Positions 36,206 to 49,208 of a stretch of DNA of 64,000 nt are shown piece after piece; position 1 is the first letter of the stretch; each line of letters begins with the position of its first letter. The notes under the pieces were generated by a model. It made no database searches. It was not told the DNA's origin and saw only the letters and a list, made by a program, of their open reading frames with translations. The DNA is taken from contig NZ_CP007456.1 of assembly GCF_000800455.1 (NCBI RefSeq), positions 992,001 to 1,056,000 of the forward strand. Direction: 5' to 3'. The translations under genes were made by a program, and so were the position numbers. The DNA is from Bifidobacterium catenulatum PV20-2. GTDB taxonomy: Bacteria > Actinomycetota > Actinomycetes > Actinomycetales > Bifidobacteriaceae.

Positions 36206-38086
36206 GTGGGCCAGCAGCATAACCAGCCCGGTTTCACCGATCAGTCGTTGATTCGCAATTTCTGCATCATCGCGCATATCGATCACGGCAAGTCTACGGT
36301 GGCAGACCGTATTCTGCAGCTCAGCGGCATCGTGCCCGAACGTGAGATGCGTGATCGTTTCCTGGACCGCATGGATATTGAGCAGGAGCGTGGCATCACC
36401 ATCAAATCGCAGGCCGTGCGCGTGCCGTGGACGTTCGACGGCACCGAATACACCCTCGGCATGATCGACACTCCAGGTCACGTCGACTTCACCTACGAGG
36501 TTTCCCGCGCACTCGCCGCATGCGAGGGTGCCGTGCTGCTTGTCGATGCGACACAGGGCATCGAAGCACAGACCCTGTCGAACCTGTATATGGCCATTGA
36601 CCACGATCTGGCCATCATTCCTGTACTGAACAAAATCGATCTTCCCAGCGCGGAACCAGACAAGCATGCCGAAGAAATCGCAGGCCTGATTGGCTGCGAT
36701 CCTTCCGAAGTGCTACGCGTGTCCGGTAAAACCGGTGAAGGCGTGTCCGAACTGCTTGACCGTATCGTTGCCGACGTTCCGGCGCCGACTGGAGATCCGG
36801 AAGCACCCGCACGTGCGTTGATCTTCGATTCCGTCTACGACTCTTATCGCGGTATCGTCACCTACATTCGTATGGTCGATGGCGAGCTGCGTTCCCGTGA
36901 GAAACTGCATATGATGGGTATCGGCATGACCCATGATCCGATTGAAATCGGCGTGATCAGTCCAGACATGATGCCTACGAAGGCGCTTGGCGCGGGCGAA
37001 GTCGGTTATGTGATCACCGGCGCGAAGGATGTCAGCCAGTCCAAGGTGGGCGACACCATCACTTCTGCGCTCAAGCCCGCAGCCGATCCGCTCGAAGGCT
37101 ACCGTGACCCACAGCCCATGGTCTACGCGGGTCTGTTCCCGATCGACAACGCGCAGTATCCGGAACTCCGTGAGGCGCTAGACAAGCTCAAGCTCAACGA
37201 CGCGGCCCTGATTTATGAGCCGGAAACGTCTGTGGCGTTGGGCTTCGGCTTCCGCTGCGGCTTCCTTGGCCTGCTGCACATGGAGATCGTGACCGAACGA
37301 CTGAGCCGTGAATTCAATCTTGATTTGATCTCCACCGCGCCGAACGTGCCGTACGAGGTCACTGCGGAAGACAATTCCGTGTATCGTGTGACCAATCCGA
37401 GTGAATTCCCCGACGGCAAGATCAAGCAGATCGTCGAACCGATGGTGGCCGCCGACATCATCACTCCGAAGGAATTCATCGGCGCCGTCATGGACTTGTG
37501 TCAGGACCATCGTGGCCAAATGGGCACTATGGAATACATTTCCGCCGACCGTGTGGAAATGCATTATCGTATTCCGCTGGCTGAAATCGTGTTCGACTTC
37601 TTCGACCAGTTGAAGAGCCGCACCAAGGGCTACGCGTCGCTTGACTACCATGAGGACGGCGAACAGTCCGCCGATCTGGTGAAGGTTGACATTCTCATCC
37701 AGGGTGAGAAGGTCGATGCGTTCAGCGCCATCGTGCATAAGGATAAGGCGTATTCCTACGGTGTGATGATGACGAAGAAGCTGCGTGAGCTCATTCCTCG
37801 CCAGCAGTTCGAAATCCCGATTCAGGCCGCCATCGGCTCCCGCATCATCGCACGCGAGAACATTCGTGCCTTGCGCAAGGACGTGCTTGCCAAGTGTTAT
37901 GGCGGCGACATTTCCCGTAAGCGCAAGCTGCTCGAAAAGCAGAAGGCCGGCAAGAAGCGCATGAAGATGCTCGGCCATGTCGAGGTGCCGCAAGAGGCGT
38001 TCATCGCCGCATTGTCGACCGGAGAGACCGGCAATGACCGTGACACCAAAGACAAGATCCGTGCGGCCCAGAAGACCGAAGGCTGA
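36206..38086 (+). CDS. lepA: Elongation factor 4 (LepA)
   Basis: 626 aa if started at GTG 36206, nine bases after a strong CAGGAGGAGG; the frame is open from 36176. GTPase motifs [23 protein letters not shown] and NKIDLPSA are followed by EF-G-like domains and the LepA-specific C-terminus ([40 protein letters not shown], then [24 protein letters not shown]). It back-translocates or remodels stalled ribosomes. The stop overlaps the hemW ATG by one base. Confidence 0.96.
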
Positions 38087-39291
38087 TGTTCGAAGTTTAC
38101 ATTCATGTGCCATTCTGCATGCGCCGCTGCGGTTATTGTGATTTCAACACGTATACCGCCGTCGACATGGGAGCGGGCGCATCGCGCGGCAACTACGCCA
38201 ACATGGTGATTCGCGAGATGTCGATCGTTCGCGATTGGCAGATCGCGCACGGCATTGACGAACCGGAAGCGGCCACCGTCTTCTTCGGCGGTGGCACGCC
38301 CACGATTCTGAAAGCCTCGGATCTGGTGGACATGCTGAATGCCGTGCGCGATACGTGGGGCATTGCCGAGAACGCGGAAATCACCACCGAGGCGAATCCG
38401 GACACGGTGAACGCCGATTATGTGAAGGAACTGGCGAACGGCGGATTCAACCGCATCTCTTTCGGCATGCAGTCGGCCGTGCCAAGCGTGCTGAAAACAT
38501 TGGACCGTACGCATACTCCGGCCAATGTGGCGGCAGGAATCGCCGCGGCAAATGCTGCCGGCATGCGTTCCAGCGTGGATTTGATTTACGGTGCGCCGGG
38601 GGAGAGCCTTGATGATTGGCGCACTTCCGTACGCACGGCGATCGATTTGGGAGTCAACCATATTTCGGCATATGCGTTGACCGTTGCGCCGAACACGAAA
38701 ATGGGACGTCAGATTGCGGCAGGAACATTGCCTACGCCCGATGATGACGATGAGGCAACCAAATATGAGATCGCCGACGATCTGTTGAGCGCGGCCGGTC
38801 TTGAATGGTACGAGATCAGCAATTGGGCACGGCCTGGTTATGAATCGCAACATAATCTCGGCTACTGGCACAATGTCGACTGGGCCGGACTTGGACCGGG
38901 TGCGCACAGCCACTATGGCAACGTGCTGGATGTCGAACAGTCCATGCCGAAGGAAAAAACCGAAACAGTCAAAACTTCGGGCTTACGCAGCTGGGATATC
39001 GCACATCCGCGCATGTGGGGTCAGGCTATCAACGCCGGCGATATGCCATGGTCGGGACGCGAACGAATCTCCAACGAGGAGAACCTCGAAGAAATCATCA
39101 TGCTTGGTCTGCGCATACGTGAGGGCCTTGATTTGAGCCTTCTTGGAAGCACGGTTGATATGGCTCGCATCCAACCCATGGAAGACGAAGGTCTTATCGT
39201 GATCCGTGACGGACGTGTGATTCCAACCCGAACCGGACGCCTGCTCAACGACACCGTCATCGAGCGTTTCTTCGACGCCTGTTCGTTATAA
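38086..39291 (+). CDS. hemW: HemW-like radical SAM protein
   Basis: 401 aa. The radical SAM cluster motif CMRRCGYC is at C11, C15 and C18, followed by FFGGGTPTIL and the HemW-type DLIYGAPGESLDDW. HemW is a heme chaperone related to oxygen-independent coproporphyrinogen oxidase; annotation as HemN is common but the CxxxCxxC lacking the HemN extension favours HemW. It is translationally coupled to lepA (TGATG), a frequent pair. Confidence 0.9.
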   Translation: MFEVYIHVPFCMRRCGYCDFNTYTAVDMGAGASRGNYANMVIREMSIVRDWQIAHGIDEPEAATVFFGGGTPTILKASDLVDMLNAVRDTWGIAENAEITTEANPDTVNADYVKELANGGFNRISFGMQSAVPSVLKTLDRTHTPANVAAGIAAANAAGMRSSVDLIYGAPGESLDDWRTSVRTAIDLGVNHISAYALTVAPNTKMGRQIAAGTLPTPDDDDEATKYEIADDLLSAAGLEWYEISNWARPGYESQHNLGYWHNVDWAGLGPGAHSHYGNVLDVEQSMPKEKTETVKTSGLRSWDIAHPRMWGQAINAGDMPWSGRERISNEENLEEIIMLGLRIREGLDLSLLGSTVDMARIQPMEDEGLIVIRDGRVIPTRTGRLLNDTVIERFFDACSL

Positions 39292-39400: not shown

Positions 39401-40198
39401 TCAGCGCATCGTGAGGCCGCCATCGACATGCAATGTCTGTCCGGTGATGAAACGTGCATCCTCACCCACCAGCAGTGCTACGCCCCCTGCGATGTCATCG
39501 GCGGTGGCGAGTCGTCCCAAAGGCGTCTGCTCGATGATATGTTCGCGAATATCTTCAGTAGTGGCGCGACTTGAATCCGTGCCTACGGTCAGACCTGCGG
39601 CGATGGCATTCACCGTGATGCCCCACGCTCCGGCTTCCTGCGCTAATGAGCGCGTGAGCCCGATGAGTGCGCCTTTGGCGGCTATGTAGTCGTGGTAGGG
39701 GACGATGGGACTGTCGACGAGGTTGCTGGAGATGTTGACGATACGTCCCCATGATTGGCGTCGCATGTATGGCAGTGCGGCTGTGCAGGTGTTGTAGGTG
39801 CCTTTGAGACATCCTTCGAGTTGGGTTGCATAGTCGTTCCAGACGGTATTGCCGAAAGTGATGCGGTTGCGCGGATCGAACGAGTAGTGATTGAGTGCGT
39901 TGTTGACGAGGATGTCGATGCCGCCGAAAGTGTTGACTGTGGTTTGCGTGAGTTCGTTGACTTGGTTTAGGTCGGTCACGTCTGCTTTGCATACGATGAT
40001 GCGTCCTTGCGCTTCGGCGTCGTGTTCGATGCGTCGCGCGGTCTGTTGTGCGCGTTCGTTGTTGCTCAGGTAGTCGATGGTCACGTTGGCGCCGAGTTGC
40101 GCGAGTCTGAGTGCGATTGCGGCACCGATGCCTCGGCTTGCGCCGGTGACGATAGCTGTTTTGCCGGTGAGCGGTCGGCTTGTATGTTGCTGGTTCAT
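39401..40198 (-). CDS. SDR-family oxidoreductase in the TPP-riboswitch operon
   Basis: 265-aa short-chain dehydrogenase, FabG-like. TGASRGIGAAIALRL is the NAD(P) loop, NNALNHYS the NNAG-like strand, and the catalytic triad is S in VNISSN with Y-x3-K in YHDYIAAKG. The C-terminus RFITGQTLHVDGGLTM is classical SDR. It is the last gene of the permease-luxE-luxC run, 16 bp behind luxC, so it most likely reduces the aldehyde made by the LuxC-like enzyme to an alcohol; this role is inference from context. Confidence 0.85.
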   Translation of the reverse strand: MNQQHTSRPLTGKTAIVTGASRGIGAAIALRLAQLGANVTIDYLSNNERAQQTARRIEHDAEAQGRIIVCKADVTDLNQVNELTQTTVNTFGGIDILVNNALNHYSFDPRNRITFGNTVWNDYATQLEGCLKGTYNTCTAALPYMRRQSWGRIVNISSNLVDSPIVPYHDYIAAKGALIGLTRSLAQEAGAWGITVNAIAAGLTVGTDSSRATTEDIREHIIEQTPLGRLATADDIAGGVALLVGEDARFITGQTLHVDGGLTMR

Positions 40199-40214
40199 GG
40201 GGTTTCCTTAGGGA

Positions 40215-41717
40215 TTATTCGTAATCGATGTCGAAGGTGTCGGAGTAACGGTCGGTGTTGCGTTCGATGTCAACGGCTCTGACAAGATCGAGGATGTTGA
40301 ATCCGCCATCGTGATGCCATCCGGATTTCGCACGGTTCATTTCGCCGACGGGGCAGATGCGGTCGATGCCGTATTCGCCCACGTGTTGCGCAAGTGTGAA
40401 TAGTCTGGATGAGCTGGCGGCGATCGCGCAGGTCTGCAGCCAAGCGCGATATGGTTTCAGCGCTGGCAGTGCGTTTTCGAGCTGATCCACGGCGACGAGG
40501 TTGATGGTGCGGTTGAGTGGGGTCGCCAATGAGGTGAGACTGTCGGTATTGGGGAAGTAGAGCACGGTCCAGCTGGTGCCTTGCGGTGACTCGATGACGA
40601 ACGGCGCCTGTGGGTCGCTTTGGGCCGTGGAACCGTCTGGTGCCGGAGCCGCCATGAACAGCGCTTTCATCTCGGTTTCGGAACGCGCTCTGCGTATGGC
40701 GAGCGATTCTTCATCGGAAGGGGCGGATCTTGGGTATTTGCGCTGCTGCGAGTCGAGTTCGCGGGCAAGCAGTTCGGCGGTTTGCGCGGGGGAGATGGCG
40801 CCGCCTCGTTCCACGAAGATGGTTTGCGGCGCCAAACAGCTTTGTTGGTCGTAGGTGGCCACGTCCACGGCCATGCGGTGCACGGTCTGCACATGCGTGT
40901 CCGCGCGCAACGCTTCGCGGCCAATCAGTGAGAAGCCGATGCGAGCACCATAGCTGAGAAACGGTTTGCCGGTACCGACGCGTGGACGGATGGCTTCAGT
41001 GGTGTGCGAAGAGCCGTAGGCGATTACGGCATTCGCTTCGCCGATCGCCATGTCTTCAAGTTCCACAGTGCCGCCACGCCATGGCACCACGGCCAAAGCG
41101 TCAGCAAGATCCGGATCGATTTGCGCCAAAGAGTGCGCGAAAAGTACGGGCATCAGCGGCTCATCGAACGAGGATTTGCCGATAATCGCGCTTTTCGTCA
41201 GCAGACTCATGGTCATGCTCCACACAGGAATGCCGGGAACGTTGCTGGAGAACACGTGGAACGTCAGATCAGGTCCATACAGGCGCGTGTACCCGCCGGA
41301 CTTGTTCGGACGGTATTCGTCCAGTATGCGCGGGCTTGACAGCTCATCGTCGAGAAAACGCAACAGCTCGCGTCTACGAAACATGCGCATGTAGCGTTTC
41401 AACTCGATGCGTGTCATCGTCGCATCATAGCCGGTAATGGCGGGAATCAACGATTCGGCAAGCAGACGTTCCTCATAATCGGGATCCGTCCACAATTCCA
41501 CAGCCTTACCGATAACATCCACAATGCGTTCGACGGAATATGCCGACAGTGTCTGCAGCCGATTGCGACGTACTGTCCCGCACAAATCACGGATTATTTC
41601 CGCAGTGAGCACCGGATATCGTAACGTGACCTCACCATGATTGGTGATGATGTCGCGCGTTTCGAAATCTTGAAACACGAAACCGCGCGGCGTATGGAAA
41701 ATATCGATGATGCTCAT
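40215..41717 (-). CDS. LuxC-like acyl-CoA reductase
   Basis: 500 aa, aldehyde-dehydrogenase superfamily, LuxC type. LTFHVFSSNVPGIPVWSMTMSLLTKSAIIGKSS is the nucleotide-binding front, and YDQQSCLAPQTIFVE contains the putative acyl-accepting catalytic cysteine (C294). LuxC takes an acyl group from LuxE and reduces it with NADPH to an aldehyde. Only a LuxE-like gene accompanies it; luxA, luxB and luxD are absent. Starts at ATG 41717 overlapping the LuxE stop by four bases. Confidence 0.88.
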   Translation of the reverse strand: MSIIDIFHTPRGFVFQDFETRDIITNHGEVTLRYPVLTAEIIRDLCGTVRRNRLQTLSAYSVERIVDVIGKAVELWTDPDYEERLLAESLIPAITGYDATMTRIELKRYMRMFRRRELLRFLDDELSSPRILDEYRPNKSGGYTRLYGPDLTFHVFSSNVPGIPVWSMTMSLLTKSAIIGKSSFDEPLMPVLFAHSLAQIDPDLADALAVVPWRGGTVELEDMAIGEANAVIAYGSSHTTEAIRPRVGTGKPFLSYGARIGFSLIGREALRADTHVQTVHRMAVDVATYDQQSCLAPQTIFVERGGAISPAQTAELLARELDSQQRKYPRSAPSDEESLAIRRARSETEMKALFMAAPAPDGSTAQSDPQAPFVIESPQGTSWTVLYFPNTDSLTSLATPLNRTINLVAVDQLENALPALKPYRAWLQTCAIAASSSRLFTLAQHVGEYGIDRICPVGEMNRAKSGWHHDGGFNILDLVRAVDIERNTDRYSDTFDIDYE

Positions 41718-42838
41718 GCGTTCGCCGCCATCACCTCATCGACGGCGATGGAGCAACCACGTGCCTCCGCACCCTTCGCACGACCATTGAGCTCGTAACC
41801 GGAAGCGGTGCGCACGCCAAGGTCCTCCGTCAAAATCGCCAGGCAGGAATTCCAATTCGCCAAATCGTAATGCGCGATCACACCTTGTTTGCCATTGGGA
41901 ACAGGCATGAGGGTCGCCGGATCGAGAAACACGGAGCGAACCCACGACGGCGTAGCCTTCAGATAATTCGACGATCCATCCGTATAGTACGACAGCAGAT
42001 TCTGGTCGTAAATCTGTGAACTCAACTCCGTCATGCCATACATGTTCACACAGTGCGTGCGAGCGACGCCGAACACCTCAGAGAACCTCGCATACAGGTC
42101 ATCGACCGTCATATTGGTTTTTGTGCTCTTGAATCCACCGGTATCGAACACACGCGAATCCTTCGCCAACGCATAGGTCTTGCCCTGCCTGGCAAGATAG
42201 TCAAGCAGATACAGGTATGCAGACGAGGCGCCCATCAGCATCACCGGCTCGCCATCGGCCACCGCCTGATCGAGGAATCCTTCCACGCCCGCGAAATCCA
42301 AACCATCCTCATGGAAGAAGAAGCCGCTGCCTTCGCTGCCGCACTGCTCCAGCGCACGCGTCAGATAACGGGCCAACGAACCATTATGGTTCATCTCCCA
42401 AGCGGGGGAGAGTATTGCGATGCGTATACGTTTGCGGTCAGGCATGATGAAATGACGGAACGGGCCGATCATCGAAGCGTCCCACACCTCAAGATCAGGA
42501 TGATAATTGCGTCCACGTTGGCCGGGATGCGTGGTGCCGCTGGTCATGAACACGGCCTCGCACTCCGTTTCGGGAACCGAAGTGAGCGTCAGCATCTTGA
42601 ACCCATCCACCGGCATCGGTGGAATATCCATCCAGCTGGACAACGTCTGCGGAGTCACCCTGCGAGACATGCAATACGTACGATACTGCATGTTATGAGC
42701 GTACTGAAAAGCGAAAATCTGGCGTGCGAGCGCGTCGAACGCCTTATCCGGCGCGGTTTCGCATCCGTACTTTTCGATGAACTCAAGCACATCTGCCTTG
42801 ATCTGCTGAGCTTCAGTGTTTAGCGACATCGATGTCAT
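41714..42838 (-). CDS. LuxE-like acyl-protein synthetase
   Basis: 374 aa from ATG 42838, which has AGGAAAGG about 12 bases upstream; an extension to a TTG at 42892 would overlap the permease and lacks a site. Adenylate-forming enzyme: EAVFMTSGTTHPGQRGRNYH is the AMP-binding P-loop, GASSAYLYLLDYLA and VNMYGMTELSSQIYD follow the ANL order. A cysteine near the C-terminus (C362 in RGCSIAVDEV) sits where LuxE carries its acyl-transfer cysteine. It would activate a carboxylate as acyl-AMP and hand it to LuxC. Confidence 0.88.
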   Translation of the reverse strand: MTSMSLNTEAQQIKADVLEFIEKYGCETAPDKAFDALARQIFAFQYAHNMQYRTYCMSRRVTPQTLSSWMDIPPMPVDGFKMLTLTSVPETECEAVFMTSGTTHPGQRGRNYHPDLEVWDASMIGPFRHFIMPDRKRIRIAILSPAWEMNHNGSLARYLTRALEQCGSEGSGFFFHEDGLDFAGVEGFLDQAVADGEPVMLMGASSAYLYLLDYLARQGKTYALAKDSRVFDTGGFKSTKTNMTVDDLYARFSEVFGVARTHCVNMYGMTELSSQIYDQNLLSYYTDGSSNYLKATPSWVRSVFLDPATLMPVPNGKQGVIAHYDLANWNSCLAILTEDLGVRTASGYELNGRAKGAEARGCSIAVDEVMAANA

Positions 42839-42888
42839 GATGCAATGTTCCTTTCCTATGTTCAATTTCGGTAACGGTTGATCGTGAA

Positions 42889-44238
42889 TCAAGCCTGTGT
42901 CTGATCCTCGTCATTGCCTGTGCCTGTTTTGTGACGATTGATCAGATTCGGCAAATCGATCAGCAACGCCTTGAGAATCACCACGCAGAACGCGCCGACC
43001 AGAATCGAATTGGAGAAGAACACGTGAGCGCCGCTCTCAAGACCGCTCAATGCGTTCGGCAACGCGATACCCAACAGCAGTGACAAGCCGATGACTACTT
43101 GGGATCGGTCGTCCGACTCTGCCTTGCGCAGCGTATTGAAGCCCGTGCTGATCAGGCTCGCCGCGGCCGGAAGGAAAATGCCACCGATTACAGGGGAGGG
43201 AATCAACGACAACATCGCACCGGCTTTCGGTATGAAACCAAGTGCCACAAACGCCACACCGGCGATGATCACCGGCACGCAGGTGCGGGACTTGCCCTCA
43301 TCCGTAACCTTAAGCAAAGCGACATTCTGCGGATACGCGGTAGTGGTGAAACCACCGATCAGCGAAGAAATAGCGGAACCAGCCGCTTCGCCGGACAAGC
43401 CATAACGAACCTGACGATCCTCAAGCTTGACGCCCTGAATCTCGCTGGCCGCCTGATACACGCCAAGCGCCTCCATAATCGCAACCATATACGCAATGAA
43501 GAATGGTACAAAAACCGCAGCATCAAAATCAAAACCACCATATGGCATGATCTGAGGAAGACCGAACCAAGACTTGGACGCAACCCCGGAAAAATCTGCC
43601 ATGCCAAACACTATGGAGAGCGAAGTGCCGACAACCAATGCAATCAAGTAGGAAAGCGCCCTGACCATACCCTTGCCAAACTGGGAAAGCACCACCACCA
43701 ACACGCAAGTCGCCACAGACACGGCCAACGTCTTTGGATCAGCAAACCCATCATCGCCGGGAGCGCCGCCAAGAAACTCACTCAATGTGAAACTCGATAG
43801 CGAAACGCCAACCAGAAAAATAATCACGCCGGAAACCATCGGCGCAAATAGAAAGCGCATCTTCTCAATCACGCGAGTCAGACACAGCACCACGAAAATC
43901 AGCGAACTAACAAAAATCGACGTGCCAGCCGCAGCCAACGAACCGGCGGTGCCAGCGGCAATCATCAACGCATCGAACGCGGCAGACGGACCTTGCACAA
44001 TTGGCAGACGCACCAACTTCGTGGCCTGAATCAACGTGACCAAACCAGACACGATGAAAATAGCGTTCACCATATTCGAAGATAAGGCCAACGGCAACCC
44101 AATGGCACCGGCCACAAATACCGGATCAAGCCACACATTAGACACCAACACATGCTGCAAACCCAGCAAAACGTTCTTTGGAGTGAGCTTTTTCGAATCG
44201 GATCCGTTCTGAACGGATGGTTGCGACATGGCAGACAT
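42889..44238 (-). CDS. NCS2-family nucleobase-type permease under TPP riboswitch
   Basis: 449 aa with 12-14 hydrophobic segments. LGLQHVLVSNVWLDPVFVAGA, RLPIVQGPSAAFDALMIAAGT and the TM8/TM10 substrate-site segments AYMVAIMEALGVYQAAS and GGFTTTAYPQNVALLKVTD place it in the uracil/xanthine (NCS2) family. I prefer ATG 44238 (third codon of the open frame) because GAGAGGGG lies eight bases before it. First gene behind a TPP riboswitch, 51 bp before luxE. The TPP control suggests its substrate is a thiamine moiety such as a pyrimidine, rather than uracil or xanthine; inference. Confidence 0.85.
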   Translation of the reverse strand: MSAMSQPSVQNGSDSKKLTPKNVLLGLQHVLVSNVWLDPVFVAGAIGLPLALSSNMVNAIFIVSGLVTLIQATKLVRLPIVQGPSAAFDALMIAAGTAGSLAAAGTSIFVSSLIFVVLCLTRVIEKMRFLFAPMVSGVIIFLVGVSLSSFTLSEFLGGAPGDDGFADPKTLAVSVATCVLVVVLSQFGKGMVRALSYLIALVVGTSLSIVFGMADFSGVASKSWFGLPQIMPYGGFDFDAAVFVPFFIAYMVAIMEALGVYQAASEIQGVKLEDRQVRYGLSGEAAGSAISSLIGGFTTTAYPQNVALLKVTDEGKSRTCVPVIIAGVAFVALGFIPKAGAMLSLIPSPVIGGIFLPAAASLISTGFNTLRKAESDDRSQVVIGLSLLLGIALPNALSGLESGAHVFFSNSILVGAFCVVILKALLIDLPNLINRHKTGTGNDEDQTQA

Positions 44239-44320
44239 GTCCATTCCCCTCTCTTCCTTATATGGAGGATGACCAGTTTATGATCGCCGACACAGAGGAA
44301 CGTATATGTGCACCGTTCGT

Positions 44321-44405
44321 AACATTCCTACGCAGGCATTACCCTGATCAGGTATGAGGGTCCGGGCAAAAGCCCGTCTCAGCCACATATCGGCTCCCCT
44401 GTACT
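44321..44405 (-). promoter_or_regulatory. TPP riboswitch (THI element)
   Basis: The minus strand reads AGGGGAGCCG, GGCTGAGA, the P3 hairpin CGGGC-TTTT-GCCCG, ACCCTCATACCTGATCAGGG, TAATGCCTGCGTAGGAATG. The CTGAGA core, the ACCTGATC-GGGTAAT-CC-GCGTAGG core and their spacing are those of the TPP riboswitch. It lies about 80 bp before the permease start and probably represses the permease-luxE-luxC-SDR run when thiamine pyrophosphate is plentiful. A CCTCT between aptamer and gene could pair with the AGAGGGG ribosome-binding region, which would fit translational control. Confidence 0.95.
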
Positions 44406-44636
44406 ATTCAGACAAGCAGCCAGCATAACGGCATGCGTCGATACTTGGATGAGTTGGCGTGAGAGTCCGGTTCGTTGGATATTCTCCACATCCCCTCGAG
44501 AAAGTATGTCTTGACTTTTCGGGGTATTCGTTATATGGACACATGAAACGTGTTTGATACAGGGGCGCGTTATTCTAATCCACGCATTAAAGAACCGCAA
44601 GACTTTTCTTGCCTAAAAACATTGAAGGTGGTTTCG

Positions 44637-49208
<4,572 letters not shown>

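Follow-up and report, generated by a model that had tools for sequence, protein, structure and literature searches.

We analysed a window of 64 kb (the whole stretch of DNA studied, G000:C1:992001-1056000) from the 2.37 Mb single-contig genome of Bifidobacterium catenulatum PV20-2, which carries on its minus strand a thiamine pyrophosphate (TPP) riboswitch followed by genes for an NCS2-family permease, a LuxE-like acyl-protein synthetase, a LuxC-like acyl reductase and a short-chain dehydrogenase/reductase (SDR). Coordinates refer to positions in this window unless another locus is named, and the family searches in the window covered the four operon proteins. The arrangement had been proposed by an earlier sequence-only reading and was confirmed by Rfam and Pfam matches (Table 1), the TPP aptamer and one tRNA being the two Rfam matches in the window at the gathering score. 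The aptamer is separated from the permease gene by 62 bases. The open frame of the LuxE gene extends to a TTG codon at 42892 (frame 41714-42892); because several homologues begin near the ATG at 42838, corresponding to residue 19 of the long frame, translation probably starts there. With this start, the gap between the NCS2 and LuxE genes amounts to 50 bases instead of the 51 given earlier, while the previous figures for the overlap of 4 bases between the LuxE and LuxC genes and the gap of 16 bases between the LuxC and SDR genes were borne out. The LuxE gene is present as a single copy in the genome, and the nearest LuxE sequences are those of Bifidobacterium sp. N4G05 (96%) and B. catenulatum subsp. 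kashiwanohense (92%).

Table 1. Features of the operon and tandem aptamers of related loci (window positions unless a locus is given).
Feature	Position	Strand	Match or source
TPP riboswitch aptamer (THI element)	44307..44410	-	RF00059, cmscan 61.8 bits, gathering 54.3, E 1e-9
Predicted Shine-Dalgarno stretch of the permease gene	44246..44257	-	ViennaRNA leader model
NCS2-family permease, proposed acid importer	42889..44244	-	PF00860, 8e-66
LuxE-like ATP-dependent acyl-protein synthetase	41714..42838	-	PF04443, 5e-25, 88.6 bits, cut-off 24.9
LuxC-like acyl-protein thioester reductase	40215..41717	-	PF05893, 1.9e-117, 393 bits, cut-off 21
SDR oxidoreductase, proposed aldehyde-to-alcohol reductase	39401..40198	-	PF13561, 4.6e-54
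Tandem aptamers before ThiW	L040:6764-7136, L043:4928-5355, L049:5649-6107, L107:3787-4083		

LuxE proteins activate a carboxylate with ATP and transfer the acyl group as a thioester to LuxC for NADPH-dependent reduction to an aldehyde, and SDRs interconvert aldehydes and alcohols. The residues expected for this chemistry are conserved in the operon proteins. The LuxE-like protein belongs to a family with an ATP-binding core and a C-terminal cysteine; its T117-S118-G119 and NMYGMTE motifs and C380 near the C-terminus are invariant in all ten aligned sequences, and its profile matches the LuxE of PDB entry 7xc6 (3.2e-30), with C380 aligning with the C-terminal Gly-Cys-Ser of that protein. Likewise, the LuxC-like protein is a member of a family with an active-site cysteine, and its C294 is invariant in 7/7 aligned sequences and aligns with the cysteine of the YDQQAC stretch in the LuxC of the same entry (profile match 3.6e-32). 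Y171, K175 and a P-x-V-P-Y-H-D-Y motif are invariant in the seven aligned SDR sequences. Because the LuxE and LuxC cysteines and the SDR tyrosine and lysine are conserved, the reduction of a carboxylate to an alcohol would be natural chemistry for the three enzymes, and we regard this part of the earlier proposal as very probable.

The operon had also been judged not to serve luminescence, which agrees with the NCBIfam scores of LuxC (86.7 bits vs. a cut-off of 750) and LuxE (71.3 bits vs. 550); no luxA, luxB or luxD genes were seen by eye among the translations listed between 36.5 and 47.5 kb, no genome-wide lux search having been made. The permease passes the cut-off of the NCBIfam subfamily NCS2_1, named 'purine/pyrimidine permease' (110.2 bits, cut-off 40), and stays below that of the xanthine transporter family pbuX (TIGR03173; 316.8 bits, and 334.1 bits for a Bacillus relative, cut-off 414.15). 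The best NCBIfam match of the operon SDR is NF006393 with 259.2 bits, compared to 271.6 bits for the SDR of Thauera and a cut-off of 292.

The co-occurrence of the LuxE-LuxC-SDR trio with TPP riboswitches, which had been suggested as a check on the proposed thiamine connection, was found wherever it could be assessed: a TPP aptamer is located upstream and on the coding strand in all 47 module loci with enough upstream DNA, which come from three phyla. Thirty-five of these aptamers reach the Rfam gathering score, six fall below it (L057, L060, L065, L067, L068 and L070; 48.6-54.1 bits, E 1.6e-6 or better) and six were found with our own model only. By group, the aptamer is present in 11/11 loci of Bifidobacterium (the window, L030-L037, L096 and L097), in 21/21 chromosomal loci of Bacillota with upstream DNA (L065 at 50.8 bits), in 9/9 loci of Burkholderiales (four at the gathering score, five at 48.6-54.1 bits) and in all six plasmid loci analysed (L102-L107). 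The latter were detected with model R1, which had been built without them, at an E-value of 1.3e-11 or better. The count excludes L048 and L059, whose contigs break off about 360 and 444 bases before the first gene and show no aptamer, L098, which by its length is the same contig as L037, and the Bifidobacterium carriers G001, G006, G019, G020, G038, G060 and G069, some of which may belong to the species of L030-L036. Judged from these genomes, the position of the module behind a TPP aptamer is no chance neighbourhood.

A second connection to thiamine is provided by neighbouring genes, since thiD, thiE, thiM, thiG or thiO adjoin the module in eight loci from two phyla. ThiM-ThiD-ThiE follow the module directly in L039 and L058 and precede it directly in L042 and L065, and ThiD-ThiE follow it in L048. 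The rows of L057 (G140) and L079 (G387) read ThiD-LuxE-LuxC-ABC-SDR-ThiE, where ABC denotes genes of an ATP-binding cassette transporter; ThiO and ThiG are located next to these genes, in L057 on the opposite strand. In L054, ThiG-ThiH together with a match to ThiF lie about 0.45 kb downstream. In L042, L057, L065 and L079, the gene that comes first after the aptamer is itself a thi gene belonging to the row. Among the annotated loci, thiM beside the module is always accompanied by thiD, whereas L048, L057 and L079 have thiD but no thiM there. In the window itself, none of thiD, thiE and thiM stands beside the module. The aptamers in 47/47 loci and the adjoining thi genes in eight support the postulated link of the trio to thiamine, and a role in thiamine salvage, taken by itself, is in our view close to certain on these genomic grounds.

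Scanning one genome per species for LuxE yielded 36 loci, which comprise eight from Bifidobacterium, 22 from Bacillota, those of Ramlibacter and Thauera, one from Methylomirabilota and three from Armatimonadetes. A LuxC gene with an adjoining SDR gene is present in 11 of 112 Bifidobacterium genomes, including the one studied here, and the order of the Thauera genome, which we take to be Burkholderiales in GTDB, contains eight carriers in a sample of 399 genomes, Thauera included. The gene order in Gram-positive species is TPP aptamer, NCS2, LuxE, LuxC and SDR, whereas Burkholderiales and Azospirillum show LuxE, LuxC, an ABC ATPase, a permease, a binding protein of the NMT1/THI5 type and SDR. 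The locus of Methylomirabilota has the latter order without an SDR match. The transporter therefore varies, being NCS2 in most Gram-positive and mostly an ABC system in proteobacterial loci; a megaplasmid of Pantoea dispersa (L105) has no matching transporter next to its LuxE, LuxC and SDR genes, and Niallia NCCP-28 (L040) shows two TPP aptamers, ThiW, LuxE, LuxC and SDR with no NCS2 match. On this comparison of gene orders, LuxE, LuxC, SDR and the riboswitch are the constant core, and the transporter is exchangeable. A plasmid of 10 kb in Lactiplantibacillus plantarum and one of 21 kb in Levilactobacillus brevis also carry complete NCS2-type operons. Because both plasmids (L102, NZ_CP035118.1, and L103, NZ_CP050546.1) carry the complete version with the same four protein accessions, the module, as far as can be read from these records, is one that travels as a unit. 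The distance matrices of LuxE, LuxC, SDR and NCS2 agree with one another (Mantel r 0.89-0.96 over 30-41 loci, with 0/999 permutations as high).

Some loci deviate from these patterns. In one Bifidobacterium genome (G015, L097:8207-10116), the operon is deleted from early in the NCS2 gene to the middle of the LuxC gene, leaving the TPP aptamer and the SDR gene and removing LuxE, and the LuxE of Pullulanibacillus camelliae is split into two separate frames in the record (L061:7929-9055). Three Niallia records and Bacillus infantis contain two tandem TPP aptamers ahead of ThiW (Table 1). The Armatimonadetes loci L062, L063 and L064 consist of LuxE-LuxC pairs that share 31-36% identity in LuxE with the window; no adjoining SDR, matching transporter or TPP aptamer was found at these three loci, and they were excluded from the module counts.

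In the host genome, seven TPP matches were detected, six of them above the cut-off. Apart from the one described here, they precede tenA, thiM, a fused thiE-thiC gene, a transporter which we read from its translation as ykoEDC-like, a ThiF gene followed by a match to ThiG (the one aptamer below the cut-off) and a standalone SDR gene. Because ThiC, ThiG, ThiE and ThiM are all present, the host can apparently synthesise thiamine de novo, and by its aptamer the LuxE-LuxC-SDR operon is one branch of the TPP regulon of this host. The standalone SDR gene codes for 260 residues and is located outside the window (G000:C1:941455-942234; L012:7453-8235, minus strand). Its product is 38% identical to the operon SDR, shares its P-x-V-P-Y-H-D-Y motif and Lys175, and matches NF006393 with 402.7 bits, above the cut-off of 292. 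Its own TPP aptamer is present in three of the four carrier genomes of the genus (G000, G042 and G058) and was not found in G052, the loci outside the host being L099, L100 and L101. From these similarities, the standalone SDR may act on the same aldehyde as the operon SDR.

We modelled the leader of the operon with ViennaRNA. In the free leader, the 12 bases of the Shine-Dalgarno stretch are unpaired with probabilities of 0.09-0.88, and enforcing the aptamer lowers this to 0.00-0.19 for nine of them, with three bases at 0.63-0.98. According to this model, aptamer formation would largely mask the Shine-Dalgarno stretch ahead of the permease gene, which fits a translational OFF switch. The minimum free energy fold of the leader alone was not unusual (z -1.31), and scanning for promoter and terminator patterns gave no information. 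For the L. plantarum plasmid, we read from the sequence that a hairpin and then a T run lie between the aptamer and the permease gene, so that this leader looks like a transcription attenuator. As for the genes flanking the operon in the window, the translation of the divergent neighbour (44550-49208, plus strand) looks like the large subunit of glutamate synthase, and that of the convergent one (38086-39291, plus strand) like a HemN/HemW-type protein.

From the composition of the operon we infer the following pathway. At low concentrations of TPP, the riboswitch would permit expression of the operon, and the NCS2 permease, or the ABC transporter in other phyla, would import an oxidised thiamine fragment, most likely 4-amino-2-methylpyrimidine-5-carboxylate; such an uptake is natural because the transporters are exchangeable. 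LuxE would then adenylate the carboxylate and hand it as a thioester via its C-terminal cysteine to LuxC, which would reduce the thioester to the aldehyde. The SDR would reduce the aldehyde further to the alcohol hydroxymethylpyrimidine (HMP), and ThiD and ThiE would carry HMP on to thiamine phosphate. The proposal that the operon imports an oxidised thiamine fragment and reduces it for thiamine synthesis is supported as the best explanation of the genomic data. In its full form, as a TPP-repressed salvage operon converting the pyrimidine acid to HMP, we consider it reasonably probable.

Thiamine splits into a pyrimidine and a thiazole part, either of which has a carboxylic acid form, and a recovered thiazole alcohol enters the known route via ThiM. 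Evidence on the choice between the two acids comes from carriers of the ABC-type module. Full-length ThiM was found in only one of the ten tested (G384), whereas G140, G141, G142, G240, G280, G351, G387, G414 and G472 gave no ThiM match. Among carriers of the NCS2 type, G146 likewise lacks full-length ThiM. G387 and G140 gave no match to ThiC or ThiM, though thiD, thiE, thiO and thiG adjoin the module there; with ThiG present and ThiC and ThiM absent, therefore, only a pyrimidine product would be useful to these two. Among 31 carriers with data on ThiC and ThiG, eight have ThiG without ThiC, G124 has neither, and ThiC never occurs in the absence of ThiG, the ThiG search having covered part of the ABC-type carriers. 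We favour the pyrimidine acid over the thiazole acid because of these nine carriers without ThiM and of the gene content of G387 and G140, and this choice of substrate seems more plausible than its reverse. We also counted in its favour that the permease passes the cut-off of the purine/pyrimidine subfamily. According to the title of reference 144 of PMC7780320, rat urine contains the pyrimidine acid as a metabolite of thiamine.

Several observations weigh against this reading. The 47 loci are not independent, since many come from congeners and L102 and L103 carry identical proteins. The absence of full-length ThiM is also seen in 40 of 41 control genomes from the order of Thauera, two of the 40 having partial matches just above the cut-off; because it is usual in that order, the absence of ThiM is, on these counts, a functional argument and not an enrichment. 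Of 193 genomes from the family to which G122 belongs, some carriers among these 193, 110 lack ThiC, as do 4 of the 41 controls; ThiC loss alone was for this reason rejected as a sign of need. The genomes G140, G141 and G146 are metagenome-assembled, and gene absence is uncertain there, in G387 and in the further genomes whose completeness is not stated. In the Gram-positive carriers, full-length ThiM is present in all 29 genomes of one set, 28 of which also have full-length ThiG. The binding protein of the ABC systems is only distantly similar to ThiY and THI5, and sulfonate-type families score better. As proof of a pyrimidine ligand it was rejected, with weak matches to THI5, THI13 and ThiY and 107 bits, below the cut-off, for the sulfonate family. 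Carboxythiazole (thiazole 2-carboxylate) was discarded as a substrate in turn, since its reduction would yield no thiamine precursor.

The same operon logic could apply to 4-methyl-5-thiazoleacetic acid, which would be reduced to hydroxyethylthiazole (HET) and then phosphorylated by ThiM. ThiW, which is listed as a HET transporter (PMC6593275), is part of the operon in L040, L043, L049 and L107, in L040 without an NCS2 match beside it, and therefore points to thiazole. ThiM is present in 30/31 Gram-positive carriers tested, G147 having it and G146 not, and its gene adjoins the module in the four loci with ThiM-ThiD-ThiE. However, nine of the ten ABC-type carriers could not use the thiazole product by the known route, and the pairing of thiM with the module only in the company of thiD, with thiD managing without thiM in three loci, speaks against the thiazole acid. 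We regard this acid as unlikely to be the substrate, although the two major clades might use different acids.

Other readings would place the reaction elsewhere in or outside thiamine metabolism. The trio might act on a different acid related to thiamine, for instance thiamine acetic acid, or repair acids formed inside the cell when HMP or its aldehyde is oxidised, while the transporter would serve a precursor of its own. The Pantoea plasmid trio without a matching transporter beside it, the different transporters among clades and the standalone SDR, which shares the motif and is itself preceded by a TPP aptamer, would fit such a role, but the remaining annotated module loci all have NCS2, ABC or ThiW genes in the row (an NCS2 fragment in L097), and the thiD and thiE neighbours indicate a precursor and not whole thiamine, which makes it rather improbable. 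A long-chain aldehyde or another product outside thiamine metabolism, merely tied to thiamine status by the riboswitch, would accord with the membership in the LuxE and LuxC families; among solved structures, relatives were found only in the luminescence enzymes of PDB 7xc6. Such a product is hard to reconcile with TPP aptamers in 47/47 loci, with thi genes next to the module in two phyla and with scores of 71 (LuxE) and 87 bits (LuxC) against luminescence cut-offs of 550 and 750, and we consider it very improbable. Among these readings, a role of the mobile, TPP-controlled LuxE-LuxC-SDR module in thiamine metabolism is strongly supported by the genomic evidence, and the pyrimidine acid is its most likely substrate.

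A comparative study of 2002 may have listed a TPP-linked oxidoreductase, and a search for the name of its gene found nothing. Our literature searches, with most subscription journals outside their coverage, returned no description of a TPP-linked LuxE-LuxC-SDR module, in line with the earlier statement that no pathway with this gene combination has been described. A 2013 survey of RNA-regulated genes (PMC3766115) and PMC6593275 describe TPP-regulated transporters and enzymes and, in their accessible parts, do not name LuxE, LuxC or NCS2; the terms NCS2, xanthine and dehydrogenase are absent from the main text of the former. A transcriptome of Bifidobacterium breve (PMC5746004) reports, in the portion available, one TPP riboswitch, at a biosynthesis operon. 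In the databases, the LuxE proteins are named CoF or coenzyme F390 synthetase, LuxE/PaaK family acyltransferase, acyl-CoA synthetase or long-chain fatty acid-CoA ligase, and the SDR of the module is named 3-oxoacyl-acyl carrier protein (ACP) reductase.

Our broadest proposal is an undescribed and horizontally spread recovery of vitamin B1, in which pyrimidine acid excreted by animals is taken up and reduced by LuxE-LuxC and the SDR to HMP at the expense of ATP and reductant; we see the chances of this complete scenario as evenly balanced. If it is true, human gut bifidobacteria would recycle a vitamin breakdown product regarded as waste, and two lactobacilli would carry the pathway on small plasmids. 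It would add a reductive branch to thiamine salvage and assign a function to the LuxE-LuxC-SDR set, whose LuxE and SDR members bear the names given above. Predictions of B1 metabolism would change for gut bacteria, lactobacilli and soil bacteria, and strains scored as HMP-requiring might grow on its acid.

Base-degraded thiamine is salvaged by TenA and YlmB together with ThiXYZ, which convert the damaged pyrimidine to HMP and employ a binding protein of the ThiY type. The proposed pathway resembles this system in leading from a damaged pyrimidine fragment to HMP and in the ThiY-type binding protein, but the known route is hydrolytic, whereas that of the module would be reductive and driven by ATP. 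The LuxC-LuxE fatty acid reductase of luminous bacteria converts an acid via an acyl-enzyme to an aldehyde. Both of its proteins (PDB 7xc6) are related to those of the module, with C380 and C294 aligning with its cysteines; unlike the luminescence system, the module stands behind a TPP riboswitch together with a transporter and an SDR, and no lux genes were recognised beside it. The SDR family PRK08642 (NF006393, named 3-oxoacyl-ACP reductase) is the best match of the operon SDRs, yet both tested proteins score below its cut-off, and the fatty-acid name appears doubtful for the TPP-linked members of this family. The known salvage systems employ CytX, ThiXYZ and YkoEDC as transporters for HMP and ThiW and ThiU for HET, combined with ThiD, ThiM and ThiE (Table 1 of PMC6593275). 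They share with the module the control by TPP riboswitches and a transporter with enzymes that feed ThiD and ThiE. In contrast, the B1 row of that table, as available, names no NCS2, LuxE, LuxC or SDR, and the compound imported by the module would be an acid, which needs prior reduction before it can enter the common route.

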